From Bacteroidales bacterium (GTDB lineage: Bacteria; Bacteroidota; Bacteroidia; Bacteroidales; P3): a stretch of DNA of 33,380 nucleotides. Position 1 is the stretch's first letter. Every line of letters begins with the position of its first letter. This document shows positions 14,539 through 32,886 of this stretch, one piece after another. The notes under the pieces are model-generated. The model was not told the origin of the DNA. It worked only from the letters and a program-made list of their open reading frames with translations, and ran no database searches. The position numbers and the translations under genes are program-made. The stretch spans positions 1 to 33,380 of the forward strand of contig JAISIA010000065.1 of assembly GCA_031262295.1 (NCBI GenBank). Direction: 5' to 3'.

Positions 14539-16353
14539 TTATTTGTTATTAATTAATTTTATATCTTGTACGTTTAGTTGTGTTATTGTTCTTCCTGAAA
14601 AGAAATTCTCCTCTATTTGATATATCATATCAAAAGAATATCCTCGTTTTATGTATTGATAGTATTCTCCCTGCTGAAAGGCAATACAAGGAAAAACTTT
14701 GCTATTATAGCCATTATTTATTGCAGAAAACCTTATATGATTTTCTCCTACGGGTGTCACCAATCCTGTATCTACAACCTTTTTTGTTAGAAAAAGAGGA
14801 TTATTATTTCCCTCTCCAAAGGGAGCAAACCTCTTTAATATTCTTAGAAGTTTATCTGTTATATCGTTTAACCCTATTTGAGCATCAAATTTTATTGTAG
14901 GCAGTTTAATGATTTCATCCATTCTCTTTTCTACTTCCTTATTAAATCTTAGAATAAATTCACTTAGATTCTCTTGTTTTAATGTTAAGCCTGCGGCATA
15001 CCTATGTCCTCCGAAATGATCCAATAAATCCTCACAGGCTTCAATTGCTTGGTATATATCAAATCCTTTTATTGAGCGAGCAGACCCTGATATTTTAATG
15101 GAAGACCCCTCACTTTTTTTATCAGATTTAGTAAAAATTATGGTTGGTTTGTGATATTTATCCACCAAACGTGCTGCAACAATACCAACAACTCCTTTAT
15201 GCCAAGTATCCTTATAAAGAACTATTGCACTATCATTATTAGGATTCCACTTATTATCCACCATTTCCATTGCCTCAAAGGACATCTGTCTATCCAATTC
15301 CTTTCTTTTCTCATTGTGATTGTTTATTTCACCTGAAATACGATAGGCATTATTTACATCCTTACATATAAGAAGATTTACTGCTTCCTTAGCTGAGGTA
15401 ATCCTTCCTGCGGCATTTATTCTTGGACCAATGAAAAAGCCCAAATCATGTGAGGTTATCTCCCTATTAAAATATAGTTTGGAATTATGAAATGTTGCAA
15501 TAGGGATTAGATCATTATATTTCAAAAGAGCCTTTATGCCTAATCTTGGATCGGTATTTATTACTTTAAGACCATGATATGACATTATACGATTCTCTCC
15601 CGTTAATGGTACAACATCAGCTGAGATTGCAACAGCAACTAAATCTAAATAGGGACGTATAGTTTCAAAACTATCCCCTCTTTTAATGCTTATTGCCTGA
15701 ATAAGTTTAAAAGCAATGCCACATCCGCAAAGTTCCTTATAGGGATACTTTGTTTGAAAAAGCTTAGGGTTAATTATAGAATGTGCATTAGCAATACCTT
15801 CATCAGGAAGATGATGATCGCATATTATTACATCTATACCTTTCTCTGCGGCAAAATCAATTGGTTTTTTATCTTTAATACCGCAATCCAAACACACAAC
15901 TAATGTAAAATTATTCTCTATTGCATAAAAAATACCTTCAAAAGATACACCATAGCCTTCTTTATATCTATCGGGAATATAATATTCAATATTTGCCTTA
16001 TAAGTGTTTTCAAGATAGGAATACAAAAGTGCAACAGAGGTAGTCCCATCTACATCATAGTCTCCATAGATTAGGATGTTCTCATTTTTGGAAATAGCAT
16101 CCTCAATCCTTATTACTGCCTTTTCCATATCCTCAAAGAGGAAGGGGTCGTGTAAGTTTTCAATTTTTGGATTAAAAAATTTATTTGCCTCATCATAAGA
16201 AGAAATACCTCTTTCCAAAAGCAAAGAAACTACAATATCACAAGTGTGATCAGAATTATTATTATTTAAATCTCTATTTGGGAACAACTCTCTTGAAAGC
16301 TGCTCTCTATTTTCACTATTATAATCTTTCCTTAATTCCCATATTTTTTCCAT
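14539..16353 (-). CDS. recJ: Single-stranded-DNA-specific exonuclease RecJ
   Basis: This 604-residue DHH-superfamily nuclease carries motif I DYDVDGTTS (about 98-106), the metal-binding DHH signature in CDHHLPDEG (about 178-186), a conserved RINAAGRI motif, and the DHHA1 motif GGHRYAAG (about 446-453) followed by an OB-like C-terminal part. Length and motif order fit full-length RecJ, a 5'-3' ssDNA exonuclease used in recombination and repair. The ATG at 16353 lies 11 bases after the cstA stop, and ettA follows after 12 bases, so cstA-recJ-ettA look like one transcript. Confidence 0.95.
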   Translation of the reverse strand: MEKIWELRKDYNSENREQLSRELFPNRDLNNNNSDHTCDIVVSLLLERGISSYDEANKFFNPKIENLHDPFLFEDMEKAVIRIEDAISKNENILIYGDYDVDGTTSVALLYSYLENTYKANIEYYIPDRYKEGYGVSFEGIFYAIENNFTLVVCLDCGIKDKKPIDFAAEKGIDVIICDHHLPDEGIANAHSIINPKLFQTKYPYKELCGCGIAFKLIQAISIKRGDSFETIRPYLDLVAVAISADVVPLTGENRIMSYHGLKVINTDPRLGIKALLKYNDLIPIATFHNSKLYFNREITSHDLGFFIGPRINAAGRITSAKEAVNLLICKDVNNAYRISGEINNHNEKRKELDRQMSFEAMEMVDNKWNPNNDSAIVLYKDTWHKGVVGIVAARLVDKYHKPTIIFTKSDKKSEGSSIKISGSARSIKGFDIYQAIEACEDLLDHFGGHRYAAGLTLKQENLSEFILRFNKEVEKRMDEIIKLPTIKFDAQIGLNDITDKLLRILKRFAPFGEGNNNPLFLTKKVVDTGLVTPVGENHIRFSAINNGYNSKVFPCIAFQQGEYYQYIKRGYSFDMIYQIEENFFSGRTITQLNVQDIKLINNK

Positions 16354-18595: not shown

Positions 18596-20434
18596 ATGGA
18601 AGAAATTGAACTTCTATCGCCTGCAAAGAATAAAGCAACTGCAATAAAAGCAATCCTTACAGGAGCAGATGCAATCTATATTGGTGCAGAAAGTTTCGGT
18701 GCAAGAAAGAGTGCTTCCAACAATATTGAGGATATAGAAGATGTAATTTCTTTTGCACATCTTTTTAATGTAAGAGTATATGTTACAATAAACACTATCC
18801 TCTACGATGAGGAATTAAAACAAGTAGAGAAACTAATAAACGATCTATATAAAATCAAGGTTGATGCAATAATTATTCAGGATTTTGGCATATTGGAATT
18901 AAACCTCCCTCCCATAACTATGCATTCAAGTACCCAGATGACTAATGTTTCAGAAGAGAAAATTAAGTTTTTGGAAAATATAGGCATTAAAAGAGTAGTA
19001 TTAGAAAGAGGATTATCAATAGAAGAAATAATAAAAATTCATAATAAAGCTCCAAAAATGGAATTGGAATCCTTCATATATGGTGCATTATGCGTTGGTG
19101 TAAGCGGTCAATGCTATCTAAGTGAAAATATCAATAATCGTTCGGGAAATAGAGGTGATTGTGCCCAGCCTTGCAGAGGAAGATATAGTCTTATAAATTC
19201 CAAAAAAGAAGTATTAGTAAAGGATAAATTCCTTCTCTCCACTAAGGATTTAAACCTTTGCAATGAAATTCCTCAACTCCTTAGTGCAGGAGTAAGATCC
19301 TTTAAGATTGAAGGGAGGATGAAGGATGAGAATTATGTAAGTAATGTTACCGCATTTTTTAATGAGAAAATCAACGACTTTATCAATAAAGAAGAAAATA
19401 AATCTCTTTATAAAAGGGCTTCCATTGGAAGAATAACAACAAATTTTACTCCTAATGTCTCAAAAACATTTAATCGTGGCTTTACAACCTTTAACTTCTA
19501 TGGAGAAAAGGATGATATATGTTCTTTTAATAGTGCAAAAAGTGTAGGAGTTTTTCTGGGTAAGGCAATAATTGAGAAAGAGAAAACTAAGAGAAAATAC
19601 ATACAAATTAAAACAGAGAAAGAAATCTCTTTGTCCGATGGCTTATTCTTTTTGGATAATAGAGGCTACGAACAAGGTTTTTTGGTCAATAAGGTTGAAA
19701 AACTTAATGATAACTTAGTAAAAATTTACCCTAATAAGGAGATTAACCTACCAAATAATAAGGATATTTATAGGAATTTTGATAAAAAATTCAACGATAC
19801 TCTTCAAAACAATTCTTCTCAAAGAAGGATAGGGCTTGATATAAGTATTTTTTCCTTTGATAAAGGCTTTTATTTAATCTTAAAAGATGAGGATTCCTTA
19901 GAAGTAAAAACAGAGATTCTTTGCCAAAAGGTTTTATCTAATAAAGATAATAAAGCTCTTTTGGAAAAGCAACTTACAAAATTGGGAGATACAATATTCT
20001 ATTTAAGGGAATATAAAAACAACTTAGAAGAAAATTATTTTCTTTCCATAAGTCAAATAAATGCTTTAAGAAGAAAGGCTATTGAAAACTTATTACTCTT
20101 ACGCATAAAAAATTATACTATAAAAGAGAATCCAATAATAAAGAATAATATCCCCTACTATAAAACCTCTTTAACAAAACAGGATAATATAAAAAACGAA
20201 AAAGCAAGAGAGTTTTTCCTTCGTCATAAAGTAGAAGAATTTAAAGAAGAGGAAGATAATATCCTATTAAAAAGCAAACATTGCATAAGGAAAACATTAA
20301 ATCAATGCTTAAAAACCGATAATATCCAAGAAAAATTTCAAGCTCCACTATTCATTAAAGACAATAATCACACCTATTGCTTAGAGTTTGATTGCAAGAA
20401 TTGCCTTATGATAGTCAAAAAAGGTTTAGAGTAA
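18596..20434 (+). CDS. U32 family protein, RlhA/TrhP-like RNA hydroxylation enzyme
   Basis: The 612-residue protein begins with the U32 core (ELLSPAK, ADAIYIGAESFGAR, TMHSSTQM). It has the four-cysteine Fe-S-type signature ALCVGVSGQCYLSE (about 165-178) and SGNRGDCAQPCRG (about 183-195), then SFKIEGRMK. Older annotation calls these collagenases. Members studied in E. coli (TrhP, RlhA) act in prephenate-dependent hydroxylation of tRNA U34 or 23S rRNA C2501. The long C-terminal extension resembles RlhA (653 residues) more than TrhP. It ends with a separate cysteine cluster (CIRKTLNQC, CLEFDCKNC). It follows pdxJ by 7 bases. Its last 9 bases overlap the convergent ATPase gene. RNA target unassigned. 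Confidence 0.85.
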   Translation: MEEIELLSPAKNKATAIKAILTGADAIYIGAESFGARKSASNNIEDIEDVISFAHLFNVRVYVTINTILYDEELKQVEKLINDLYKIKVDAIIIQDFGILELNLPPITMHSSTQMTNVSEEKIKFLENIGIKRVVLERGLSIEEIIKIHNKAPKMELESFIYGALCVGVSGQCYLSENINNRSGNRGDCAQPCRGRYSLINSKKEVLVKDKFLLSTKDLNLCNEIPQLLSAGVRSFKIEGRMKDENYVSNVTAFFNEKINDFINKEENKSLYKRASIGRITTNFTPNVSKTFNRGFTTFNFYGEKDDICSFNSAKSVGVFLGKAIIEKEKTKRKYIQIKTEKEISLSDGLFFLDNRGYEQGFLVNKVEKLNDNLVKIYPNKEINLPNNKDIYRNFDKKFNDTLQNNSSQRRIGLDISIFSFDKGFYLILKDEDSLEVKTEILCQKVLSNKDNKALLEKQLTKLGDTIFYLREYKNNLEENYFLSISQINALRRKAIENLLLLRIKNYTIKENPIIKNNIPYYKTSLTKQDNIKNEKAREFFLRHKVEEFKEEEDNILLKSKHCIRKTLNQCLKTDNIQEKFQAPLFIKDNNHTYCLEFDCKNCLMIVKKGLE

Positions 20435-21697
20435 TATTTCACTTAGTCTCCAAGCAGGAATATGTCTTATTCCGCCTTTGGAATTTATGTGAATATCATC
20501 AGTAGAAACAACATATTTTTCATAGTTATCATCAATTGCTTCCAATGAAGAATACTCTCTTTCCATAGTTTGATTGTCATTAAGGGTAAAAGCACATTGT
20601 ATATATATTGTACGATCGCCTTTAATTGCAACAAAATCCACTTCCTTATCCTTAATGCTACCTATATAGACAATATAACCATTTCTTAATAGCTCCAAAT
20701 ATACTAAATTCTCAAGTAAATATCCTATACCATACCCATATCCTTTGTATAAGTAGTTATTAAATGATAAATCATTAACATAGTATTTACAAACGCCCGA
20801 TATAACATCTTTTCCTCTTATATTATATCTCTCTGCCTTATGAATAAGATATGCCTCTGCTATATATCCAATGTAGGATGCAATAGTATCATAGCTTGTT
20901 CTTCTTCCATTGCTTTTAAAATAATTAGAAATATTTCTTATTGACATCAAATTAGAGGCATTATTTACAATATATATAAATATATCTTCTAATAAACGAG
21001 CATCTTTTATATTATATCTTTGTATAATATCACGCAATAGGACAGTATCTTTAAGGGCAGAAATGTAGTTACGCTTTGTTTCATAGTCGGGCAAAATAAA
21101 TAATTCGGGCATTGCACCACCTTGCATATATTCTAAGAAAGCATCTCTTGAAGGTTTCTTCTTTGTCACCTCTATATATTCATTGAAACTTAAAGGGAAT
21201 ACTTCAAACTTAACATAACGTCCTGATAGCAGTGAGGCAAGTTCTCCTGCGAGCATAGAGGAGTTAGAGCCGCTAATGAAGACCTCATATTCTGACATAT
21301 AATCCTGAGAATATGAATTAATGGCATTTTCCCACCCTTCTATGTTTTGTATCTCATCAATAAAAAGATATATCCTTCCCTTAGGTTTAATCTCTTCTTT
21401 GTATAATTTAAAAAGATCGTCAAGGTCTTTGTATGTTTTAAGGAAATTAAAATCAAGAAACTCTCTATTGACAAAGAATATATTTTTTTTATCAACTCCG
21501 CTTTCTATCAATTTAAAGGCAATTTGACGAAGAATATAACTCTTACCAACACGTCTTTGCCCAATAAGAACTTTTATTAGCCTATTACCTTTATAACGAT
21601 ATATCTTATCGGTATAATTAGGGCGAGCAAAGCCCAATTCAAACCCACCTTTACCCCAAGGATTATAATTATAAAGTGCCTTAAATCTGTCGTCCAT
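20426..21697 (-). CDS. AAA_14 ATPase with DUF4143 domain
   Basis: This 423-residue P-loop ATPase has Walker A GQRRVGKS (about 42-49), Walker B IYLFIDEIQNI, the sensor-like VFISGSNSSML, and the ELASLLSGRYVKFEVFPLSFNEY segment typical of AAA_14. A DUF4143 region follows (about 205-370, with DTVLLRDIIQRY and LENLVYLELLRNGY). It ends in a PD-(D/E)XK-like EVDFVA motif (KDKEVDFVAIKGDRTIYIQCA). The family is abundant in gut and oral Bacteroidota and has no settled function. The EVDFVA/Q pattern suggests a nuclease-like fold. It is a single gene, convergent with the U32 gene and overlapping it by 9 bases. The promoter region carries a striking repeat array. Confidence 0.9.
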   Translation of the reverse strand: MDDRFKALYNYNPWGKGGFELGFARPNYTDKIYRYKGNRLIKVLIGQRRVGKSYILRQIAFKLIESGVDKKNIFFVNREFLDFNFLKTYKDLDDLFKLYKEEIKPKGRIYLFIDEIQNIEGWENAINSYSQDYMSEYEVFISGSNSSMLAGELASLLSGRYVKFEVFPLSFNEYIEVTKKKPSRDAFLEYMQGGAMPELFILPDYETKRNYISALKDTVLLRDIIQRYNIKDARLLEDIFIYIVNNASNLMSIRNISNYFKSNGRRTSYDTIASYIGYIAEAYLIHKAERYNIRGKDVISGVCKYYVNDLSFNNYLYKGYGYGIGYLLENLVYLELLRNGYIVYIGSIKDKEVDFVAIKGDRTIYIQCAFTLNDNQTMEREYSSLEAIDDNYEKYVVSTDDIHINSKGGIRHIPAWRLSEILL

Positions 21698-22856: not shown

Positions 22857-23510
22857 TCAATATAAATTAACGATATGTTCTGCAAATATGGCAAGAAGCA
22901 AAAATATAACAGACACACTTATAGCTATATTAGCCATCCATTGACCAGCTGAAGACAATTTATCCTCCGTATTTTCGTTGGTATAATCAACGAAATCTGC
23001 AATGCTCCCTAAAACCAATGCCGCAATCATAGGAATCCACTGTCCTCCAATACCAAAATACCCTCTTAGGTATATAGGAAATAATTTCAACGATGCTTCA
23101 GTTCCTCCAAATGTAAGTGCAATTTGATTTCCAAATGAAATAAAATAATTAATAATTATAAAAGCAACACATCCCAGCGCAGCAAGTCCTAAAATCAAGA
23201 CAAGTATGCCTGTATTTGAACTTTTAGGTTCAGGAGGAGGAGGTGGTGGTGGATATCCACCTGTTGGGGGAAAATAAGATTTCCACGGCACAACGGTATT
23301 TCCTATTTTAATAATATCATAAGAAGATAACCTAACCTCTCTCCCCTTGATTTTTACGCCATTGATGTAAGTACCATTTTTGCTTTCTAAATCAGAAAGC
23401 AAAAAGTTGCCATGATCATCTTGAATGATTTGCATGTGGCGGCGAGAGACCTTCGCATCGTTAATTACGATATCATTAGAGGAACTACGTCCTATAGTTA
23501 TAACTTTCAT
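22857..23510 (-). CDS. FHA domain protein with proline-rich linker and membrane segments
   Basis: This 217-residue protein starts with an FHA phosphothreonine-reading domain (about 1-80) keeping all key residues: GR (8-9 in IGRSSSND), SRRH (22-25) and NG (45-46 in KNGTYING). It ends with the tail PWKSYF, shared with two other operon members. A run of prolines (about 87-93) links to hydrophobic segments at about 101-125, 150-170 and 190-210, so the FHA is likely cytoplasmic and membrane-tethered. ATG 23510 is preferred to an upstream TTG because the paralogues also begin MK-I-IGRS. It follows the previous gene by 8 bases. Confidence 0.85.
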   Translation of the reverse strand: MKVITIGRSSSNDIVINDAKVSRRHMQIIQDDHGNFLLSDLESKNGTYINGVKIKGREVRLSSYDIIKIGNTVVPWKSYFPPTGGYPPPPPPPEPKSSNTGILVLILGLAALGCVAFIIINYFISFGNQIALTFGGTEASLKLFPIYLRGYFGIGGQWIPMIAALVLGSIADFVDYTNENTEDKLSSAGQWMANIAISVSVIFLLLAIFAEHIVNLY

Positions 23511-23518
23511 AATCAATA

Positions 23519-24031
23519 TTAAAAATTGGCAAATGCGCTTATAATAACACTATAATAAATGATGACTATCAAAAACCAGACACAACCAAGCACAAAACCT
23601 GCTATAGCAAGACCTCTATTTTTTCTGTCCCGTTGAAATCCAATAACACCGAAAACAATCGCTAAAATGTGGATTCCTAATATTCCTAAGACAAGAGAAG
23701 CAATACCAAAGCCTCCTCCTTTTAGCGGTGATGGAGGAGTATATCCCCCACTTGGATCTGGATTTACAATAGTGCCATCACCGCCCGTTTTGGTAAAATA
23801 TGATTGCCAAGGTATAGTAGAATTGCCTATACGAACGATATCCGTTTTATTAATATTAACCTCGCCGTGTCTACGATTACCATTAATATACGTGCCGTTT
23901 GTTGATTTTAGATCTATCAAACGATAATGCCCGTAATCATCTTCTATGATTTGGCAATGATATCTTGTGACATTTCTGTCGTCAATAACGACATCATTAT
24001 TTGAACTGCGTCCAATTTTAATGATTTTCAT
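23519..24031 (-). CDS. FHA domain protein with DUF4190-like membrane domain
   Basis: The 170-residue protein has an N-terminal FHA domain (about 1-79) with IGRSSNND, TRYH in place of SRxH, STNGTYING and the tail PWQSYF. After a Gly/Pro-rich linker, two hydrophobic segments (about 108-132 and 140-165) resemble DUF4190: GIASLVLGILGI, then RGLAIAGFVLG. The FHA should be held at the inner face of the membrane to read phosphothreonine. The Thr-for-Ser change keeps the hydroxyl. It lies 39 bases after the exported protein gene and 8 bases before the last FHA gene. Confidence 0.87.
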   Translation of the reverse strand: MKIIKIGRSSNNDVVIDDRNVTRYHCQIIEDDYGHYRLIDLKSTNGTYINGNRRHGEVNINKTDIVRIGNSTIPWQSYFTKTGGDGTIVNPDPSGGYTPPSPLKGGGFGIASLVLGILGIHILAIVFGVIGFQRDRKNRGLAIAGFVLGCVWFLIVIIYYSVIISAFANF

Positions 24032-24070
24032 ATGATTTTCTTATTTATTATGCTTTTATAAATGCAAATT

Positions 24071-25465
24071 TTATTTTAGAATTGTACTACCTGGTTTCAC
24101 CATTATTTTTTCTATAAGATAAGAACCATTATTATATTTCAAAAAAAGTACTTTGTCGGTGTTATCACTGTATGTTTTGCTGAAATAATCCTGATCAATT
24201 GGACATTCAATTATTTCAAGATTACCGATTTCTACAGGGTGCTCTAGTTTTATTACTATCTCTTTTGCCTTTAAACGAGAAAAATATTTTTCAACAGAAC
24301 GAATTTCTATCCTTTCCTTTCCCTGTTTTGATATATTAGATACCTCTACCGTTGCATTATTATCCACAAACATTTCCTTCAATTTAGTACGGTTTTCATC
24401 GGTTGGATTTATCACGTATGCAGATAGCTGATTAGCAAAATTCTGAGCTACTATATGGGCAGCCGCACTTCGCTTCTCTTTTTCTCCATTTGGCAAAGGA
24501 TTTTTAATTTCTCCTTTTGTATAATCAACATTAGTAACCTGTGCAGTTTTCAAATCATCGTTTATTGTCACAGTAAATTTAGGAGAAAGTGTGTAATACG
24601 ACATCGGATTTGCATCATAAAAAGCGACTTCCTCAGGAGCTACTTCAAAATGAATGTTGATTTCTATTTTTGGAACATCTTTAGAAACGAAAGATTGTTT
24701 ATCCAATGAACCCTTTATTTCACTTTCTGCAACTTTCATTGCGGCTAAACCTATTGCTTCATCAGCATACTTCTTATCTAAATTATTAGGCAGTTCTGCA
24801 TACCAATTTGAAATAGCTTTTTGAGCCATAGCCTTCATAGAAGCAAGTTCATTATGAGTATAAGGATTCCTTTTTGCCTTAACTGAAATAAGCTGCACAT
24901 CATTTTTTTTATCTGTTCTAACAGAGTCGTCTGTCAAATTTACTTTCCATCCAAAAGTTACGGTATACTCTACATCACTTACAAACCCCTCTCTTTCAGC
25001 ACGAGTGTAAATTTCGTCTGTTGTTTCATAATAAACAGTTGTAAATTTTTTGTCTTTCTTAGATAATTTCTCAACATCAGCATTTTTACACTGAACAGGT
25101 TTAGGACTCTTATATGCCCTTTCCTCCTTAACATAACCTCTTAATTTATCAAATACTATTTCTACTCCCGTTTTTTGGATTCCTATAAATTTTTCTACTC
25201 CATTGATAATTTTTTTAAGAAATGTTTTTTTGGTGTCAATAGAAAAAGCATTTAGAGTTTTTTCATCTTCCCTCAGCATAAATTGATCGCCTGACTTTAA
25301 ATTTCCAAATTCCGGTTTAATAGCTTTTTTGTCTATCAAACCTTTCTTTACGCTCTCAACAAATGCTTTATGGGCATCTACAACAGCTTGTTCAGGTGTT
25401 TTCATTTGAGCAAAGCCTGAGAAACTTACGCTCAACAAAAGAGCGATATAGTACATTCTTTTCAT
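24071..25465 (-). CDS. Exported protein of unknown function in the FHA/kinase operon
   Basis: The 464-residue protein has a signal peptide (about 1-19, ending GFAQ) and no lipobox cysteine or later membrane segment. A periplasmic location, or secretion, is expected. The mature part is lysine-rich with mixed helix and strand and has a single cysteine pair-like stretch (KPVQCKN and IIECPID). I recognise no domain. The C-terminal part (about 340-464) looks like a separate small domain. It sits 26 bases after the kinase-FGE gene and 39 bases before an FHA gene. A partner or ligand for the periplasmic domains of the kinase or the VWA protein is a reasonable inference only. Confidence 0.8.
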   Translation of the reverse strand: MKRMYYIALLLSVSFSGFAQMKTPEQAVVDAHKAFVESVKKGLIDKKAIKPEFGNLKSGDQFMLREDEKTLNAFSIDTKKTFLKKIINGVEKFIGIQKTGVEIVFDKLRGYVKEERAYKSPKPVQCKNADVEKLSKKDKKFTTVYYETTDEIYTRAEREGFVSDVEYTVTFGWKVNLTDDSVRTDKKNDVQLISVKAKRNPYTHNELASMKAMAQKAISNWYAELPNNLDKKYADEAIGLAAMKVAESEIKGSLDKQSFVSKDVPKIEINIHFEVAPEEVAFYDANPMSYYTLSPKFTVTINDDLKTAQVTNVDYTKGEIKNPLPNGEKEKRSAAAHIVAQNFANQLSAYVINPTDENRTKLKEMFVDNNATVEVSNISKQGKERIEIRSVEKYFSRLKAKEIVIKLEHPVEIGNLEIIECPIDQDYFSKTYSDNTDKVLFLKYNNGSYLIEKIMVKPGSTILK

Positions 25466-25491
25466 TTTTTTAATTTTTAAGTTATTAAATA

Positions 25492-27138
25492 TTATTTGTT
25501 AATTATTAATCTAAATCCAATATACCCTCGTTCAACATCATCGTAATCCCTATAAGTAATACTCACTTCCTCGGCATCTGTGCTATTAAAACTTCCACCT
25601 TTGACAACATGATATTTTCTGCTATTGTCATAGTAATCTTCACACCATTCAGCAACATTGCCACTCATTTGATAAATCCCCAATTCATTGACAGAAGGCG
25701 AATATTTTATCCTAAAAGGTCTTTCTTTTTTAAACCAAATATTAGCAGGGAAACGCTTGCCATTACCAAATTTTGTATCCGCTTTTGCTTTGTTTCCACC
25801 ACGAGCTGCATATTCCCACTCGGCTTCTGTTGGGAGGGAGAATTTTTTTTTAGTTTTTTGATTTAAACGCAAAATGAATTCCTGAATCTCATCAAAATTC
25901 ACGTTTTCCACAGGGTAACTATCTTTTTGTATTTGATCTAGTGGCTGTCCTTCTCTATTTGTTTTTGGTTGATATAATGATGGATTAGAACCCATAATCG
26001 CTTTCCAAAAACCTTGAGAAACTTCATATTGACCAATATAGAAATCTCCAGATTCCCCACCATCTACTTCAATCATTGGATATAAATTCATGCCGGTGAA
26101 ATCTTTCGTGACAAATGTTTTATCTTTTGTTTTATCTGGTTTGAGAATAAAATACAAAACTAGACTCACAATAATTATTACTGCAATTATCGGAACCAAC
26201 CATAACCACTTACTAACTTTTCCGCTACCAATCCTCTCATCTATAAGTGTTGAAGGACGAACATTGCGTAAATCGTCCATAAACTCTTGAATTGTTTGGT
26301 GACGATTTTCTGGTTTAATCTGCATCGCTTTAAGAATGGTGCGATTTGCTTCATAGGGTATAGCAGGCGACAGTTCTTTCGGTTCTGGCATTTTTTCGGT
26401 TAGGCGAGCAGCAGCCTCTACAGGCACTTTTCCTGTAACAGCAAAGTAAAATGTGCCCCCCAGAGCATAGATATCCGTATATGACCCCTTGCGGCTATTA
26501 GCTGTATATTGTTCCGTAGGAGCATATCCGTGTGTAAGCATCGAAGTATGTATTTGCGTTTTATCTTGCTCAAATTCACGTGCCGAACCAAAATCTATTA
26601 GAATAGCTTTGTGGTCAGCTGTGATCATAATATTGTCGGGTTTTATATCACGATGTAGAATATGCCTTTTGTGAATGTAACCAACTGCATTGGTAATTTG
26701 AGCAATGTAATTTACAGTCTCGTTATAAGAAAGTTTACCATTTTCCGTCACTATTTGCTGTAAACTCTTACCTTCAATGAAAGGCATAACCATATAAGAA
26801 GTGTTATTCTCATCAAATATGTCTATCACTTTCACGATATTGGGATGATCAAACGAGGCAATGGTCTTAGCTTCTTTCACGAATGCTTGGCGATACTTTT
26901 CAAATGTTACCTCGCTTATTCCTTGTGGATGTATGGTCTTAGCAAAGGTATTACGCATACATTTTCCATAAGGAAAATACTCTTTGATGCACACTGTCCG
27001 GTTTAGACCGCTCTGAATCGCCTTGTAGGTAATTCCGAAACCACCCTCCCCTATTTTTTGTTGGATAGTGTATTTTCCATTGCACAATATAGTTCCTGAT
27101 TGCAATTCATGTAATCCTTGTATATTTCCCTGATCCAT
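25492..27138 (-). CDS. Transmembrane Ser/Thr protein kinase with periplasmic FGE-like domain
   Basis: The 548-residue protein fuses two modules. The kinase (about 22-290) has the loop GEGGFGITY (30-37), lysine in VCIKEYFP (Lys52), HRDIKPDN (about 159-166), DFG in LIDFGSA (about 182) and a GYAPTEQY activation segment, so it looks active. One transmembrane helix lies at about 310-333 (WLWLVPIIAVIIIVSLVLYF). The outer part (about 355-548) is an FGE/sulfatase-modifying fold: GQYEVSQGFWKAIMG, LPTEAEWEYAARGG, MSGNVAEWCEDYY, GYIGFRLI. The active-site cysteines of true formylglycine-generating enzyme are not evident, so it is more likely a C-type-lectin-like ligand or protein-binding sensor. Chlamydial Pkn1 has a comparable kinase-FGE architecture. 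It starts 3 bases after the other kinase gene. Confidence 0.92.
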   Translation of the reverse strand: MDQGNIQGLHELQSGTILCNGKYTIQQKIGEGGFGITYKAIQSGLNRTVCIKEYFPYGKCMRNTFAKTIHPQGISEVTFEKYRQAFVKEAKTIASFDHPNIVKVIDIFDENNTSYMVMPFIEGKSLQQIVTENGKLSYNETVNYIAQITNAVGYIHKRHILHRDIKPDNIMITADHKAILIDFGSAREFEQDKTQIHTSMLTHGYAPTEQYTANSRKGSYTDIYALGGTFYFAVTGKVPVEAAARLTEKMPEPKELSPAIPYEANRTILKAMQIKPENRHQTIQEFMDDLRNVRPSTLIDERIGSGKVSKWLWLVPIIAVIIIVSLVLYFILKPDKTKDKTFVTKDFTGMNLYPMIEVDGGESGDFYIGQYEVSQGFWKAIMGSNPSLYQPKTNREGQPLDQIQKDSYPVENVNFDEIQEFILRLNQKTKKKFSLPTEAEWEYAARGGNKAKADTKFGNGKRFPANIWFKKERPFRIKYSPSVNELGIYQMSGNVAEWCEDYYDNSRKYHVVKGGSFNSTDAEEVSITYRDYDDVERGYIGFRLIINK

Positions 27139-27141
27139 AAT

Positions 27142-27993
27142 TTATTTTAACTTATATCTACACATATAATCTTTGATAAAATTTCCAAATTCTCCACACG
27201 ATTGATATCTGTCTGTCGGATTTTTAGCCAAAGCACGTTCAACGATGAATTGCAAATCCGAATTGATATGCGAATAAAATTGCTTCATCTGAGGCGTCGG
27301 TTCATATTTGATTTGTCGTCGAATATCTTCGTTTGCCATCCTATAATCAAGACTTTGAGAAATGAATGGCAGTCTCCCTGTTAGCATTTCAAAAAGCATA
27401 ATCCCCAACGCAAAGATATCAGTATATGCACCTACTACTCCCTTTTCCGATTGTTCGGGCGGCATATATGCCGGAGTACCAAATCCTGTACTATTACTTG
27501 CATCACTCATGCGAGAGGCAATACCCAAGTCAATTAATTTAATCGTACCGTCTGGACGTATCATAATGTTATTTGACTTGATGTCTAAATGCAGAATACC
27601 GTTATCATGCAAGTAATTGACAGTATCAAGTATCTCTAGAAACAAAGGTAAAGCCTTTTGTTCGGGAATCAGTCCAATTTCGGTATAAATGAATTGCTCT
27701 AACGTGCGTCCTTCAATGAATTCCATCACTATATACAACTGCTCCCTATCTTTTAAGTCAATAAAATCCACCAGTCGGGGTATGTTGGGATGTTGATTAT
27801 AGAGATACATATTTGCCTCAACTTCCTTAAATTTTTGGCGAATAATAGGATTTTTGAAATGCCTAATCTTCAGCTCCTTGATTGCTACAGGAAAACCACT
27901 ACGCAAATCTACGCCCCAGTAAACCCGTGCAGTACCTCCTTCGGCTATCAATCGTCCGACATAATAGAATGGAATATTTGGCAGTTCGTTCAT
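27142..27993 (-). CDS. Soluble Ser/Thr protein kinase with HLD catalytic loop
   Basis: The 283-residue protein is a bare Hanks-type kinase domain without membrane or sensor parts. The glycine loop is AEGGTARVY (18-25), the ATP lysine is Lys39 in VAIKELK, and the catalytic loop reads LHLDIKSNN (about 134-142). The usual HRD arginine is leucine, while the catalytic aspartate, lysine and asparagine remain. The metal motif is DLG in LIDLGIAS. FGTPAYMPPEQ and DIFALGIMLFEMLTG are typical. Activity is likely, without the RD-type activation-loop control. The start codon overlaps the stop of the upstream FHA gene by one base (TAATG), indicating coupled translation. Confidence 0.92.
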   Translation of the reverse strand: MNELPNIPFYYVGRLIAEGGTARVYWGVDLRSGFPVAIKELKIRHFKNPIIRQKFKEVEANMYLYNQHPNIPRLVDFIDLKDREQLYIVMEFIEGRTLEQFIYTEIGLIPEQKALPLFLEILDTVNYLHDNGILHLDIKSNNIMIRPDGTIKLIDLGIASRMSDASNSTGFGTPAYMPPEQSEKGVVGAYTDIFALGIMLFEMLTGRLPFISQSLDYRMANEDIRRQIKYEPTPQMKQFYSHINSDLQFIVERALAKNPTDRYQSCGEFGNFIKDYMCRYKLK

Positions 27994-28925
27994 TACTTTT
28001 TCTGTTTGTTGTCTGTTTGAGGTTGTTGAGAAGAGGCAGCTGTATTTGCACTATCAACCGTATTTTGATTAGATTGCTCTTTCTGCTGCTTCTCATCTTT
28101 AGTTTCCCTCCCTAAGACTTTGTTAATAGCCTGTAGTATTTTTTCTTTTTCGTTATTATCTTCTGCTTCTTCAAACTTTGATTTAATATCTTTTTTCATT
28201 TGAGCAATAGATATATTCTGATTATTCGATGGCACCTTTAATTCCTTACAAATTTTGTTATAGTCATCCCACCACTTTATAGTTTCAAAAACCTCATAAA
28301 GTTCTTTTGTTAGTCTTTCCTTTTGCTTATTGAATTCTCTAACTTGCTTCAAATCCTTATCTTTTTGAAGTATTATTTCTTCTGCAAGTTTTTTGTGCTC
28401 TGTATTGCTAACAGAGATTGCTTCTTGATAAAGGACTTCTACATCTTTTTTTAAAGTCTCTGCATCTAACAACTTTTGTTTATATTGCGTTGTTAAATCT
28501 TTTTCTGAATCCTTTCTAATCTCTTCTTGTCGGGTAATTTCTTTTTCATTCTTGGAATTAATGTAATATAGAAGACCACCTAATATAAATAATAGTACAA
28601 TGCAGGCAGCAACAATCCACCAAATTAGGCGTCCATTTTGTTGCCTTGTATCCTCAGGGATTTTTTGCGTTTTAGGAAATTCAGAATAAAAATAGCTCTG
28701 CCAATCCAACTTTGTATTTCCTATTTGCACAATATCGTCAAGCATTAAACGAACCTCTCCTGATATACGCTGCCCATTCACGAATGTGCCGTTTGATGAG
28801 CCCAAATCCACAATAAAGTAATTATTGTTATCATTCTGCACGAGTTGCACATGATTGCGAGAGACTTTGGCGTCCTCTATGATAACATCATTTTCTCTAC
28901 TTCTTCCGATTGTTATTATTTTCAT
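27993..28925 (-). CDS. FHA domain protein with transmembrane helix and periplasmic coiled coil
   Basis: The 310-residue protein has an FHA domain (about 1-80) with IGRSREND, SRNH, SSNGTFVNG and the tail DWQSYF. A single transmembrane helix follows at about 101-122 (IWWIVAACIVLLFILGGLLY). A long charged helical region (about 125-290), rich in Glu, Lys and Gln, is expected to form coiled coil in the periplasm. The FHA can bind phosphothreonine made by the operon kinases. The gene overlaps the PP2C gene by 29 bases and the downstream kinase gene by one, so reader, phosphatase and kinase are translationally coupled. Confidence 0.88.
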   Translation of the reverse strand: MKIITIGRSRENDVIIEDAKVSRNHVQLVQNDNNNYFIVDLGSSNGTFVNGQRISGEVRLMLDDIVQIGNTKLDWQSYFYSEFPKTQKIPEDTRQQNGRLIWWIVAACIVLLFILGGLLYYINSKNEKEITRQEEIRKDSEKDLTTQYKQKLLDAETLKKDVEVLYQEAISVSNTEHKKLAEEIILQKDKDLKQVREFNKQKERLTKELYEVFETIKWWDDYNKICKELKVPSNNQNISIAQMKKDIKSKFEEAEDNNEKEKILQAINKVLGRETKDEKQQKEQSNQNTVDSANTAASSQQPQTDNKQKK

Positions 28926-30213
28926 TGTTGTTTCGTTTCATAAAGAATAAGACAGGTTTTTGGATCAGACTATCTCTCTTTTGTTTATACTTTGCTTTTA
29001 TTTCATCTAATGATTGAATGACATTATTATATGCTTCCCATTCCGTTTTGCTTTTTTTCAATTCTTCTTCTTTAACCTCGACCAGAGGAATAGTATTTGG
29101 TTCTAATTGCTTTAACTCTTCTTCTAATTTGTTTATATCAGAATGAGGTTTTATAATTCTTTTTTCTATTTCTGGAATTAATTCATCATCTGTGTATTTT
29201 TCCCATTCTAAGGAAATTCCTGTTTTCAAACCTTTAAACGCTTCAATAAATTCTACTCTCTCTCTCTGTAATGCATATTTTTTTTGCGAGTACCAATACC
29301 AATACAATCCTCCAAAGCAAATAGCTAAAATAACTATTGCCCGCATTATCCATTTAAGAATTCCTTTTGGCAATTTCCACTTGATACCCGTTTTGGATTT
29401 GCTCGTGGTCTTAGGATTAAAATCACAGTGTTTGTATATGCTCTTTTTGTGAGGACTATTGGATATTTGTATCAATTCTACCGTGATGTTGTCTAAGCCT
29501 CCGTTTTTCATGGCTAAGTATATAAGCATATCACCTTTTTGTTTGATAGTATCGTTATTTGACAAGACATCACTTATAGTACTATCTGAAATCATTCCAT
29601 TCAAACCATCACTGCAAATCAAAAATATATCGCCATTCTTCGGCAAAATGGGAGATGTATTTATAGTCGGTTCTAGTTCTGATTTGATTCCGAGAGCTTT
29701 TAAAATACGGTTTTTATTGGGATGTGATTCAGCCTCTTCATCCGTGATATTTCCTGCATCAACAAGTGTTTGCACATAGGAGTGATCTTTGGTAATACGG
29801 TGTAGTCGTTTCTCTTTTCCAAGATATAGATATATACGACTGTCACCAACATGAGCTATATATGCTTCATCATCACAGAGTAGTAGAATACAGGCTGTAG
29901 TACCCATACCTTTGAGTTCAGGATGATTGTTCGCATAACCCAATATCTGCACATTGGCATATTGAAGTGCAGAGTCAAGAGCAGAAACAGGATCAGAATA
30001 TTTTTCTTTTTTGAGATGTTCAATTATTTTTTCTACAGCAATTTCAGATGCTCGTTTACCACCGACATGACCACCCATACCATCACACACAACGAACACA
30101 TCCCCGTTAGGAGTCATTGCAGCCATATCATGGCTATCTTCTTGCACCTTTCGCACATTACCAGTCTCTTCCTTTTTGAAAATGTTGGTTGTATTGATTG
30201 TTGTTAAACTCAT
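28897..30213 (-). CDS. PP2C-family Ser/Thr phosphatase with transmembrane helix
   Basis: The 438-residue protein has a PP2C catalytic domain (about 1-252). Metal-binding motifs are intact: VQEDSH (23-28), VCDGMGGHVGG (42-52), GMGTTA, AHVGDSRIYLY, ICSDGLNGMISD and GGLDNITVELI. A transmembrane helix follows at about 288-308 (WIMRAIVILAICFGGLYWYW). A charged helical segment to 438 is probably periplasmic, mirroring the FHA-coiled-coil neighbour. It should remove phosphate from Ser/Thr sites made by the two kinases. It lies 17 bases after the small unknown gene. Confidence 0.93.
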   Translation of the reverse strand: MSLTTINTTNIFKKEETGNVRKVQEDSHDMAAMTPNGDVFVVCDGMGGHVGGKRASEIAVEKIIEHLKKEKYSDPVSALDSALQYANVQILGYANNHPELKGMGTTACILLLCDDEAYIAHVGDSRIYLYLGKEKRLHRITKDHSYVQTLVDAGNITDEEAESHPNKNRILKALGIKSELEPTINTSPILPKNGDIFLICSDGLNGMISDSTISDVLSNNDTIKQKGDMLIYLAMKNGGLDNITVELIQISNSPHKKSIYKHCDFNPKTTSKSKTGIKWKLPKGILKWIMRAIVILAICFGGLYWYWYSQKKYALQRERVEFIEAFKGLKTGISLEWEKYTDDELIPEIEKRIIKPHSDINKLEEELKQLEPNTIPLVEVKEEELKKSKTEWEAYNNVIQSLDEIKAKYKQKRDSLIQKPVLFFMKRNNNENNNNRKK

Positions 30214-30230
30214 TTCAAACTATATTAATT

Positions 30231-30554
30231 TTATCTATCATTCAAATCAAAAGAATATATAATATCATCAATCAAGGTTTCAAACTTTTTGTTATAACTC
30301 GGATGTGTCCATACATTAACGATGTAATAATATTCTTTGCTTGCAACATACAACACTTTACCAAACACTTTATCAAACTTCCAAAAATAATAACATATAG
30401 CCTTATTTCCTTTTCCCTCTGCTAAACTTTTTCTATTAGTACTATCTAATTTGTATGTAATTTTTTTAGAAACAGAATCGGAGATTTCTTGTACGGCAGA
30501 CACTAACTTCGACAAATTTATGAATATCTTCTCTAAATTTTTCTTTAAAAGCAT
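30231..30554 (-). CDS. Small protein of unknown function in the signalling operon
   Basis: A 107-residue frame lies between the VWA-FHA gene (15 bases upstream) and the PP2C gene (17 bases downstream), spaced as the true operon members are. No signal peptide or membrane helix is seen. The C-terminal half is rich in aromatic residues (ICYYFWKF, EYYYIVNVWTHP) and ends with IDDIIYSFDL, suggesting a small alpha/beta domain. I do not recognise the family. Confidence 0.65.
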   Translation of the reverse strand: MLLKKNLEKIFINLSKLVSAVQEISDSVSKKITYKLDSTNRKSLAEGKGNKAICYYFWKFDKVFGKVLYVASKEYYYIVNVWTHPSYNKKFETLIDDIIYSFDLNDR

Positions 30555-30569
30555 CTTGAACCTTATTTT

Positions 30570-32081
30570 TTATACATAAAAAGTTATTACAGCTTCACCG
30601 ATACATATTATATCGCCACTTTTGAGAGTGGCACGCTCGAAGAAAGCCCCGTTGATTATCACCTTGTTGGTGCTCTTATTATCTATTATCTCAAACCCAC
30701 CACCTGTAAATATAATTTCAGCGTGATGGCGTGAAACCTTATCGTTATTCAAAACAACATCATTATTCTTTCCTCGCCCCAAGGTGATGCGTGGTTTATT
30801 TATCGTATAATTGAATGTATCGTTACCTATGCAACATTGCAGACGCGGGTAAAGGTTTTTTGTACGCATCAGATTCTCAAGTCGCTCTTGTTCGGCTTCA
30901 TTCGCCTTTTGAGCTTCCTCTTCTCTTCGTTTACGCTCTTGTGACTCTTGCTTGCGTTTCAGATCTTCAAACTTTAGATCTGAAGCCGAAATTTGGTCTT
31001 GTAATCCGGCTTTTAGCTTTGCCATCTTTTTTTTTCGTCTAACAGCACTGCTACTTATTAACCATATTGACAATCCTATCAAAGCAAGAATAAACAAAAC
31101 AATCCCAACGAACCACCAAACATTATTCTTAATCCAATCTTTCAGTGAGAAAGAGGGTGGTATCAGCTGTTCCAGCTCTTCCTCGCCTTTCACTTTAAGA
31201 GAAATGATTCTCGCCTCATCGCCTCTTTTTGCATCGCTTTTGAATGAAATTTTATAGTTGTGACCAAAATATCTATCTCTTATTTGAGAATAGATATTAT
31301 TCAAAGCAACTTTGGCAGAAGCTACATCCATATATGAACCAAAAGTTCCATTGGTACTTTTTGCAAAACCTTCTGATTCGGGAGCAACGCCTGATTTATA
31401 ATAATACTGGATGATATATACAGGAATATGAAGCCGCTGAGCTTGGAGCAGGACTTGGGCTTCTGAGTCAGACCCCGAATTTTTCATAGAATAACCTGAA
31501 GTAAAAACAACTATGCTTTTAGCTCCTTCCATTGGTTGTAACATATCCAGTCCTTCGCGTATCGCCGAATACATATTAGATCTATTGGGAAATTCTGGGT
31601 AGCGTTCCCTGCTCGGTTGATAATTACGTATAGCTTGCTTTATTAAAAATTTATCACTTGTAAATCCATCAGTCAGAATTTTGAGAGTTGAAGGAGTGTT
31701 TTTTCGTCTATTAAAAACAGCAATAGCAATCTCATCCTTCGCAGTTATGTTTGTTTCATTGAAAAAATCAGAAAGAGTTTTCTGTGTGAAATCAAATTGT
31801 CCTCGCCCATTATGTGCCATATCTTCCCATAGGAAGAGTGTTATTTGCTGTTTCTGAGAGTGATTTTCCGGCAGGACAACCAAATCAAAATTACGTTCTT
31901 CTCCGCCTTCTTTCAGATATTGAAAATCGGATTTCGTCAATACCTGAGGAGCATAATTGTGGTACATGAAAGAAACTTTAGGAAATTTATCTACAATAAA
32001 CCCTTCCCTAATTGCGCCCATATCCTGAGCTTGTGTCGTCAAACACAATAATGACAGCCACAATAACAAAATCCGTTTCAT
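30570..32081 (-). CDS. VWA-like periplasmic domain, transmembrane helix and C-terminal FHA domain
   Basis: The 503-residue protein has a signal peptide (about 1-19, MKRILLLWLSLLCLTTQAQD) and a VWA-like region (about 50-290). The latter includes KSIVVFTSGYSMKNSGSDSE, and a canonical MIDAS DxSxS is not clear. A transmembrane helix lies at about 320-342 (WWFVGIVLFILALIGLSIWL), a highly charged coiled coil at about 355-405, and an FHA domain at about 413-503. The FHA keeps LGRGKNND and SRHH but reads STNKVIING where STNGT is usual. Topology is sensor outside, FHA inside. The frame is open to 32180, but the Met at 32081 begins the signal peptide and lies 7 bases after the upstream gene. Confidence 0.88.
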   Translation of the reverse strand: MKRILLLWLSLLCLTTQAQDMGAIREGFIVDKFPKVSFMYHNYAPQVLTKSDFQYLKEGGEERNFDLVVLPENHSQKQQITLFLWEDMAHNGRGQFDFTQKTLSDFFNETNITAKDEIAIAVFNRRKNTPSTLKILTDGFTSDKFLIKQAIRNYQPSRERYPEFPNRSNMYSAIREGLDMLQPMEGAKSIVVFTSGYSMKNSGSDSEAQVLLQAQRLHIPVYIIQYYYKSGVAPESEGFAKSTNGTFGSYMDVASAKVALNNIYSQIRDRYFGHNYKISFKSDAKRGDEARIISLKVKGEEELEQLIPPSFSLKDWIKNNVWWFVGIVLFILALIGLSIWLISSSAVRRKKKMAKLKAGLQDQISASDLKFEDLKRKQESQERKRREEEAQKANEAEQERLENLMRTKNLYPRLQCCIGNDTFNYTINKPRITLGRGKNNDVVLNNDKVSRHHAEIIFTGGGFEIIDNKSTNKVIINGAFFERATLKSGDIICIGEAVITFYV

Positions 32082-32088
32082 AGCTTTC

Positions 32089-32739
32089 TTAGAATGATGT
32101 TCTGAATTTGAAAGTAGTTTCCCCCATACGAATCTCATCTCCGTCTTTGAGGATGTGAGGCTCAAAACCGATGTTATCACCGTTCACGAGAGTGCCATGT
32201 GATGACATTTCATCTTTCAGAGCATACTGTCCCGTGCGGAATAACAGTGTTGCATGCTTATTCGACATCATTCGGTCATTGACGGTAATATTACAGTTGA
32301 TGTCACGCCCGATAATATTCTGTCCTTCATAAAGTTTATAATCAACACCCATAGAATCAAAAGAGTAGGATACCAACCATCCGACTAACTTGCGTTCCGA
32401 ACGATACATCTTTTTCTCTACTTTCTCGCCCGCAGGAGTATATTCTACATCCGGTTCATCACCAAAAACTGTACGACTTAGACTTGGTGGTCGCATGGAT
32501 CCAGAAACAGTTTCTTTTTCATTGCCTGCAACCGTTTCTTGTTCGTCTATTATTGTTGTTTTTGTTCCGCCGAGCATGTCAGTTTTTGTCGGCATTTGGC
32601 TACTTAATCCTCCGCCAACAAAATTTTCGGTTTTTAGAGATGTTTTGCTCCCTACACCATAATTACTCTGTTTGCAATAAGGACAATTTTCTTCCTGATA
32701 ATAGTGTCCATTGGGACATTGCTTAAATTTTCCAGTCAT
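32089..32739 (-). CDS. Zinc-ribbon and FHA domain protein, first gene of the operon
   Basis: The 216-residue protein starts with a small metal-binding motif, CPNGHYY then NCPYC (Cys8, His12, Cys19, Cys22). A Thr/Ser/Glu-rich low-complexity linker follows (about 30-100), containing repeated T-ETV/ETVSG-like stretches. The FHA domain is at about 124-214: IIGRDINCN, SNKH, then SSHGTLVNG. The binding-site asparagine is thus replaced by His. No membrane segment is seen. The Thr-rich linker could itself be phosphorylated, as in FHA adaptor proteins such as GarA (inference). A full promoter precedes it, making it the first gene. Confidence 0.88.
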   Translation of the reverse strand: MTGKFKQCPNGHYYQEENCPYCKQSNYGVGSKTSLKTENFVGGGLSSQMPTKTDMLGGTKTTIIDEQETVAGNEKETVSGSMRPPSLSRTVFGDEPDVEYTPAGEKVEKKMYRSERKLVGWLVSYSFDSMGVDYKLYEGQNIIGRDINCNITVNDRMMSNKHATLLFRTGQYALKDEMSSHGTLVNGDNIGFEPHILKDGDEIRMGETTFKFRTSF

Positions 32740-32854: not shown

Positions 32855-32886
32855 CAAAAATAAATCACTTTTTAAAACAAACCAAA
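32855..32886 (-). promoter_or_regulatory. Promoter of the FHA/kinase operon
   Basis: The minus strand has TTTG (plus 32883-32886), exactly 20 bases, then TATTTTTG (plus 32855-32862). The first ATG (32739) lies about 110 bases below the predicted start. No other equally good promoter is seen inside the operon gaps. Confidence 0.6.

Follow-up and report, generated by a model that had tools for sequence, protein, structure and literature searches.

The DNA analysed here (the window) is the entire 33,380-bp contig JAISIA010000065.1 of a Bacteroidales bacterium (assembly GCA_031262295.1) whose 2.04-Mb genome is 99.4% complete, and the element under study is a putative operon of ten minus-strand open reading frames (ORFs), g1 to g10, verified at positions 22857-32739 (9.9 kb; Table 1). 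Pfam matches above cut-off place an FHA domain in five of these ORFs, a Pkinase domain in two, a PP2C domain in one and an FGE-sulfatase domain at the C-terminus of one kinase, the tally of five FHA proteins taking in g2, in which an FHA domain is joined to a VWA-like domain through a transmembrane (TM) segment. A first-pass annotation had described one minus-strand run of five FHA proteins, two Ser/Thr kinases (STK), a PP2C phosphatase, a VWA-like protein and two uncharacterized proteins, one exported and one small, and the ORF positions and Pfam matches bear this out. It had also given gaps of 3-39 bp and two overlaps; the overlaps stand (29 bp between the PP2C gene g4 and the FHA gene g5, and 1 bp between g5 and the kinase gene g6), whereas the remaining gaps become 2-39 bp on correction, and two start codons are revised. 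For g2, GTG 32180 is probably wrong and ATG 32081 is preferred, since a signal peptide starts there and the gap to the neighbouring gene becomes 7 bp, and for g10, ATG 23510 rather than TTG 23516 is probably right. All ten frames are open, and the catalytic motifs of the kinases and the phosphatase are intact. A candidate promoter is the sole correct-strand match near or within the operon, where about three matches are expected by chance in the window.

Table 1. Features of the putative operon (positions in the 33,380-bp window).
Feature	Position	Strand	Description
Candidate promoter	32855..32886	-	Bacteroidota-type, TTTG-N20-TANNTTTG; 116 bp upstream of g1; weak
g1	32089..32739	-	216 aa, soluble; N-terminal zinc-ribbon-like CPNGHYY..CPYC motif and C-terminal FHA (4e-16)
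g2	30570..32081	-	503 aa; signal peptide, extracytoplasmic VWA-like domain, TM, coiled coil, cytoplasmic FHA (3e-17)
g3	30231..30554	-	107 aa, small orphan; in the variable slot between VWA-FHA and PP2C
g4	28897..30213	-	438 aa; cytoplasmic PP2C (Stp1-type; NF033484 5e-74, above equivalog cut-off), TM, extracytoplasmic helical part
g5	27993..28925	-	310 aa; FHA (4e-21), TM, extracytoplasmic coiled coil
g6	27142..27993	-	283 aa; PknB-like Ser/Thr kinase, no TM predicted; Pkinase 1e-48, PDB PknB 6e-39
g6/g7 junction	27138..27142	-	region where the type VII-like ATPase/WXG cassette falls in G036, G539, G463 and G459
g7	25492..27138	-	548 aa; Ser/Thr kinase (Pkinase 1e-44), TM, extracytoplasmic FGE-like domain (FGE 1e-25)
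g8	24071..25465	-	464 aa, exported; signal peptide, possibly tandem NTF2-like repeats
g9	23519..24031	-	170 aa; FHA (3e-17) and two-TM DUF4190-like tail (DUF4190 2e-7)
g10	22857..23510	-	about 217 aa; FHA (2.5e-21), proline-rich linker, multi-TM tail

By sequence the VWA match of g2 (9e-4; 20.0 bits against a Pfam cut-off of 23.8) falls below threshold, and the earlier label of VWA-like is right as a fold because the predicted structure, an AlphaFold model from six sequences (mean predicted local distance difference test score, pLDDT, 64.5, higher in the VWA core), matches the VWF A3 domain and integrin I domains in Foldseek (5e-7 to 2e-6; template modelling score on the target of about 0.6-0.7), in addition to FHA domains. 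The metal-ion-dependent adhesion site (MIDAS) of g2 is degenerate, with EDMAHN in place of DxSxS, and EDMAHN is invariant among close relatives. The phosphatase g4 retains the DGMGG, GDS and SDG motifs, the phosphothreonine-binding residues of the g5 FHA domain are fully canonical, and the HLDIKSNN and AIK motifs of the kinase g6 are retained in its orthologues. The kinase domain of g7 is nearest among PDB structures to PpkA (5e-46, against 2e-31 for the next), and its FGE part matches TvpA, PorK/GldK and PvdO. The model of g8 is of low confidence (pLDDT 57) with weak NTF2-like matches, too low for a fold to be assigned; g8 homologues adjoin STK-FGE genes in L007, L009, L048 and L110. The small protein g3, considered as a WXG100 candidate in the window, was rejected as such, having no Pfam match and no homologue in any fetched locus. 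Across the operon the predicted topologies agree, as had been claimed.

A genome-wide search placed all five detectable FHA domains, both Pkinase matches and the sole Stp1-type PP2C of the genome inside the operon. This grouping far exceeds chance clustering, since it brings all FHA, kinase and PP2C matches of the 2.04-Mb genome within 9.9 kb and further genera show this order again. Among the genomes compared, which are mostly draft or metagenome-assembled, a relative of the VWA-FHA protein was found in 0/10 of the same genus, 13/190 of the family and 15/393 sampled over the order, and none among the 72,556 plasmid and 50,697 phage records searched; the distribution of the core across Bacteroidales is patchy. 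The gene order is nevertheless preserved in about 20 loci, in other genera and families: a zinc-ribbon FHA protein of the g1 type (FHAzr) opens the core and is followed by VWA-TM-FHA, a variable slot, PP2C-TM, FHA-TM-coil and STK. In the nearest relatives (L006, L007, L009, L010 and G048) STK-TM-FGE, an exported protein and FHA-DUF4190 then follow, as in the window, the exported protein belonging to the g8 family except that L006 has a BACON protein at this position and none was identified in L010. The g9 type recurs in relatives, often with DUF2752 next to it, and FHA-multi-TM proteins related to g10 occur there as well. The variable slot, occupied by g3 in the window, is taken elsewhere by additional FHA proteins, a protein of 135-138 aa or proteins bearing the zinc-ribbon CPNGHYY..CPYC motif. 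In distant families (G058, G175, G218 and G161) the order is FHAzr, VWA-FHA, PP2C, STK and FHA, with an ABC-2 exporter bearing FHA domains upstream of the core in G058 and G175, and a minimal triplet of VWA-FHA, PP2C and STK is found in one family, f56 (L073-L076). The first-pass annotation had taken the ten genes as one unit and had named scattered orthologues in advance as an outcome that would count against it; the comparison did not refute it on this ground, and the conservation of the order beyond the genus and the family, the intact catalytic motifs and the concordant topologies all favour a single unit.

In five genomes of the family (G036, G539, G463, G455 and G459) an ATPase gene directly follows that of the STK. 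In G036 this gene encodes an FHA-FtsK/SpoIIIE protein, and WXG100-like proteins come after it. The ATPase was found in 7/190 genomes of the family, and the VWA-FHA core in 7/7 of these genomes versus 6/183 of the others (Fisher p = 1.1e-9). The resulting cassette runs from the ATPase to a WXG protein of 95-97 aa (WXG96; in G455 one extra small ORF precedes it), a protein of roughly 170-260 aa, a WXG-like protein of 82-164 aa (not found in G459) and at least one WXG-like protein with a long C-terminus that differs from locus to locus. Of the remaining two genomes, G491 has the core and ATPase halves on different contigs, and G485 has a divergent core accompanied by a lipase-domain protein, small WXG-like proteins and an ATPase of 889 aa that is likewise divergent. 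The cassette ATPases match type VII secretion system (T7SS) EccC/EssC models at 1e-18 to 3e-25 in 6/6 cases, against 8e-4 at best for the FtsK DNA translocase, and their PDB matches are EccC (1e-14) and YukB (5e-13); their N-terminal FHA domain is canonical in its GR..S..H..NG residues, and they have no predicted TM segment. The WXG96 proteins match the WXG100 family in 6/6 cases (best 1.1e-5) and EsxA/EsxB in the PDB (0.0015). One of the WXG-like proteins (in L109) has a papain-fold glutamine deamidase toxin domain at its C-terminus (8e-18). Such pairing of WXG-like N-termini with varied C-termini resembles the layout of polymorphic toxins and offers the strongest hint that the cassette may be a secretion system. 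Genes of this kind, with WXG-like N-termini and differing C-termini, were noted at L109:15926-18205, L113:17198-19001 and L119:9597-11528, the last lipase class 3-like at just below cut-off. With an EccC/EssC-type ATPase, WXG100 proteins and WXG-toxin fusions, the sister loci have the gene content of a putative type VII-like system. No YukD-like protein was seen in them, no profile search for YukD having been made.

Downstream of its cassette, G539 continues with FHA-DUF4190, STK-FGE and a g8 homologue, which are the flanks found in the window, and because these flanks match and g6 and g7 lie only 3 bp apart, the window represents the same operon minus the cassette. Comparison shows its chassis to match the control half of the cassette loci by homology, gene for gene and in the same order. 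The complex had been proposed to be self-contained, which is not supported, as five genomes of the family have, in their version of the operon, a type VII-like ATPase/WXG100 cassette between genes that are neighbours in the window; likewise, the earlier remark that no secretion genes are present is correct for the window itself but is not supported as a statement of distance from secretion.

Several observations weigh against a tie between this operon and secretion. The host genome contains no relative of the sister-locus ATPase and so lacks the EccC/EssC-type ATPase that a T7SS would demand; its single FtsK_SpoIIIE match lies in an 835-aa frame. Nor was a WXG100 protein detected in it (PF06013, E 0.01), a search that divergent members could escape, as the G036 proteins score below the family cut-off. 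Hence a secretion role for the window would be by kinship only. Moreover, the cassette ATPase differs from EssC in that it contains a single canonical Walker ATPase domain, is degenerate in its C-terminal part and is predicted to have no TM segment, and 6/13 core-positive genomes of the family, some of them incomplete, are without it. At the level of the order a relative of the ATPase occurs in 3/393 genomes, 0/3 of which have a VWA-FHA match, so that core and cassette need not go together beyond the family. Loci L126 (G351), L127 (G221) and L128 (G129), from further families of the order, hold relatives of the ATPase that carry one predicted TM segment and are each flanked by ORFs of about 90 aa; they are possibly a second kind of type VII-like locus.

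Taken with the conserved chassis, the cassette loci suggest that the operon is probably the control unit of type VII-like toxin-secretion machines, here without the machine. We consider it reasonably likely that it forms an inner-membrane-spanning phosphothreonine control chassis which, as the cassette is absent from the window lineage, most likely drives another FHA-tagged output in this organism. In such a complex the kinases g7, PpkA-like with a periplasmic FGE-like domain, and g6 would act as writers that phosphorylate threonines on complex members, the membrane-anchored PP2C g4 would be the eraser that resets the complex, and the five FHA proteins, namely the VWA-TM-FHA receptor g2, the FHA-coil protein g5, the multi-TM proteins g9 and g10 and the soluble zinc-ribbon FHA protein g1, would be its readers. 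A periplasmic sensing layer composed of the VWA and FGE domains, g8 and the helical stalks may detect an envelope event or partner and switch the kinase, and the resulting phosphothreonines may then draw FHA-tagged clients to the membrane. As one FHA domain sits on the cassette ATPase itself, phosphorylation could bring this soluble ATPase to the membrane in the cassette loci, whereas in the window, without the cassette, the multi-TM FHA proteins g9 and g10 would be the best output candidates. The scheme would be modular, with FHA as the plug: an FHA-ATPase, an FHA-ABC exporter (L049 and L066) and an FHA-subtilase (L006) are all found joined to the same core. The broader proposal, that some Bacteroidales possess a diderm type VII-like toxin secretion with a phosphothreonine-docked soluble FHA-EccC/EssC-like ATPase under a kinase/phosphatase/VWA/FGE sensor, the window being the same chassis with a different FHA-tagged output, we regard as evenly poised.

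The subtilase in question is a 720-aa FHA-TM-subtilase at L006:8937-11099, between STK and STK-FGE, the position of the ATPase cassette in other loci, and it bears a superficial likeness to the mycosin protease of type VII systems. Otherwise dissimilar proteins with the N-terminal CPNGHYY..CPYC zinc-ribbon-like motif of g1 were seen at L045:11825-12457 and 14716-16185, L010:6221-6811 and L009:3212-3793, one of them with a kinase-like region; the motif is perhaps a common recruitment tag.

Among known systems, phosphothreonine control has been proposed for T7SSc and T7SSe in a paper that covers Gram-positive phyla only (Garrett, Higginson and Palmer 2024, PMC11217815): in both, a membrane Ser/Thr kinase and a PPM phosphatase are encoded with an EccC/EssC-like ATPase and WXG100 proteins, to which T7SSc adds a cytoplasmic VWA protein and T7SSe an FHA protein (PMC11217815). 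The window resembles these kits in bringing together a kinase with a TM segment, a PPM phosphatase and VWA and FHA genes, but is without ATPase or WXG100, and its VWA domain is extracytoplasmic where that of T7SSc is cytoplasmic (PMC11217815). The sister loci share the kinase, PPM phosphatase, VWA/FHA, EccC/EssC-like ATPase and WXG100 with T7SSc/e and differ in occurring in diderm Bacteroidota and in having an exported VWA-FHA fusion, a kinase with an FGE tail, a much larger number of FHA proteins and an ATPase without predicted TM segment. In type VI secretion systems (T6SS), threonine phosphorylation involves the membrane kinase PpkA, which has an extracellular VWA domain and is activated through TagR, together with Fha and PppA (PMC10482370, PMC3224232). 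The logic of this pathway (PpkA, PppA, Fha, TagQRST), a membrane kinase with a periplasmic sensor, a PP2C phosphatase and FHA readers, is that of the window, where a PpkA-like kinase, PP2C and FHA proteins occur together, and an extracytoplasmic VWA domain is common to both (PMC3224232). The comparison with T6SS drawn in the first-pass annotation is thus sound as an analogy, the g7 kinase half being closest in the PDB to PpkA, although in the window it is an FHA protein that carries the VWA domain, and the kinase has an FGE domain in its place. A T6SS control module as such was rejected, the sheath protein VipB (PF05943) being absent from the genome. The distant core loci L049 and L066 and the partial locus L068 carry an ABC-2 exporter with FHA domains next to the core, and so recall the kinase-regulated FHA-ABC exporters of the Rv1747 type, again with FHA as plug; no such exporter is present in the window. 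In L049:8703-11570 and L066:9131-12046, both from another family, the Rv1747-like exporter-FHA fusion (three stretches in L049) stands directly upstream of the core. The TerY-P triad consists of a cytoplasmic TerY-type VWA protein with canonical MIDAS, a PP2C phosphatase and a kinase, beside ter genes. The same three enzyme or domain types are found in the window, and the f56 triplet (L073-L076) is superficially alike, but the VWA domain of g2 is exported and joined via a TM segment to FHA, its MIDAS is degenerate, PP2C and kinase are membrane-anchored, and no ter genes are among the annotated window genes. A filing of the operon under TerY-P is unsupported, the VWA protein being exported and membrane-anchored. 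In the open-licence literature, covered mostly by titles and abstracts with supplementary files and preprints outside the search, no description of a type VII/WXG100 system or of an FHA-FtsK pairing in Bacteroidota was found, and no paper on TerY-P kits in the open-licence literature.

In a tree of concatenated FHAzr, VWA-FHA, PP2C and STK, the window groups with L006, L007, L009, L010 and G048 in a cassette-less clade (support 100/100; for L006-L010 the absence is judged from the fetched loci, not whole genomes), and the sister clade (93/93) is a mixture of cassette-bearing and cassette-less loci. This fully supported six-locus clade, together with the cores without cassette in the outgroup loci G058, G175, G218 and G161 and in the triplets L073-L076, is what would be expected if an envelope-sensing complex had always stood alone in this lineage, without any secretion partner, and the cassette had been added later to a pre-existing sensor in a sister lineage. 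However, the cassette label needs four changes on the tree, which may be gains or losses; the cassette occupies the same position in G036, at the base of the sister clade, the divergent core/ATPase locus G485 branches deeper, and the window retains g7 and g8, the flanks of the cassette in G539. We therefore see this history as rather unlikely, if a serious contender. Still less probable is that the operon is a repurposed or decaying remnant, a type VII-like locus stripped of its ATPase and WXG genes with no output left. A genome without ATPase or WXG100, a g6/g7 junction of just 3 bp and a tree that permits losses are in agreement with such decay, but the open frames and intact motifs, and an arrangement shared by six cassette-less loci whose VWA-FHA proteins have diverged to about 50-65% identity, speak for selection.

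The patchy distribution and a variable slot occupied by small proteins, zinc-ribbon ones among them, would also suit an anti-phage or TerY-P-like conflict module, and both kinases match the PADLOC PD-T4-6 and MAD6 models. These kinase matches are generic, however (36 models each), the only other match to a defence model in the operon is a sub-threshold one to KwaA, the VWA domain is exported rather than cytoplasmic, and no plasmid or phage record was matched, all of which makes a conflict module a very improbable explanation; assignment to a defence system (PD-T4-6 or MADS) was rejected, as the PADLOC matches reflect generic kinase and partner genes are missing.

As regards the surroundings, the contig extends just 641 bp beyond the upstream end of the operon, and in an empty-site comparison within the genus the flanking U32 peptidase is only about 52% identical. 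An AAA_14/DUF4143 ATPase gene (20426-21697) lies just downstream, between the operon and housekeeping genes, and further away (337-12228) a protein of 3963 aa, which combines GEVED, Ig-like and Por_Secre_tail domains, is a giant predicted type IX secretion substrate. A partial locus in G015 (L079:9796-12382) combines FHA, DUF2752 and a g8 homologue without the VWA/PP2C core.

Described type VII systems are those of Gram-positive phyla, and a Bacteroidales locus that unites ATPase, WXG100-like proteins, WXG-toxin fusions and phosphothreonine signalling would extend the family to diderm gut-type bacteria. Such a locus suggests that the ATPase may be under the control of FHA docking. The operon in the window sets the control unit apart from the machine, so that the action of kinase, phosphatase and readers without a secretion ATPase would be directly testable.

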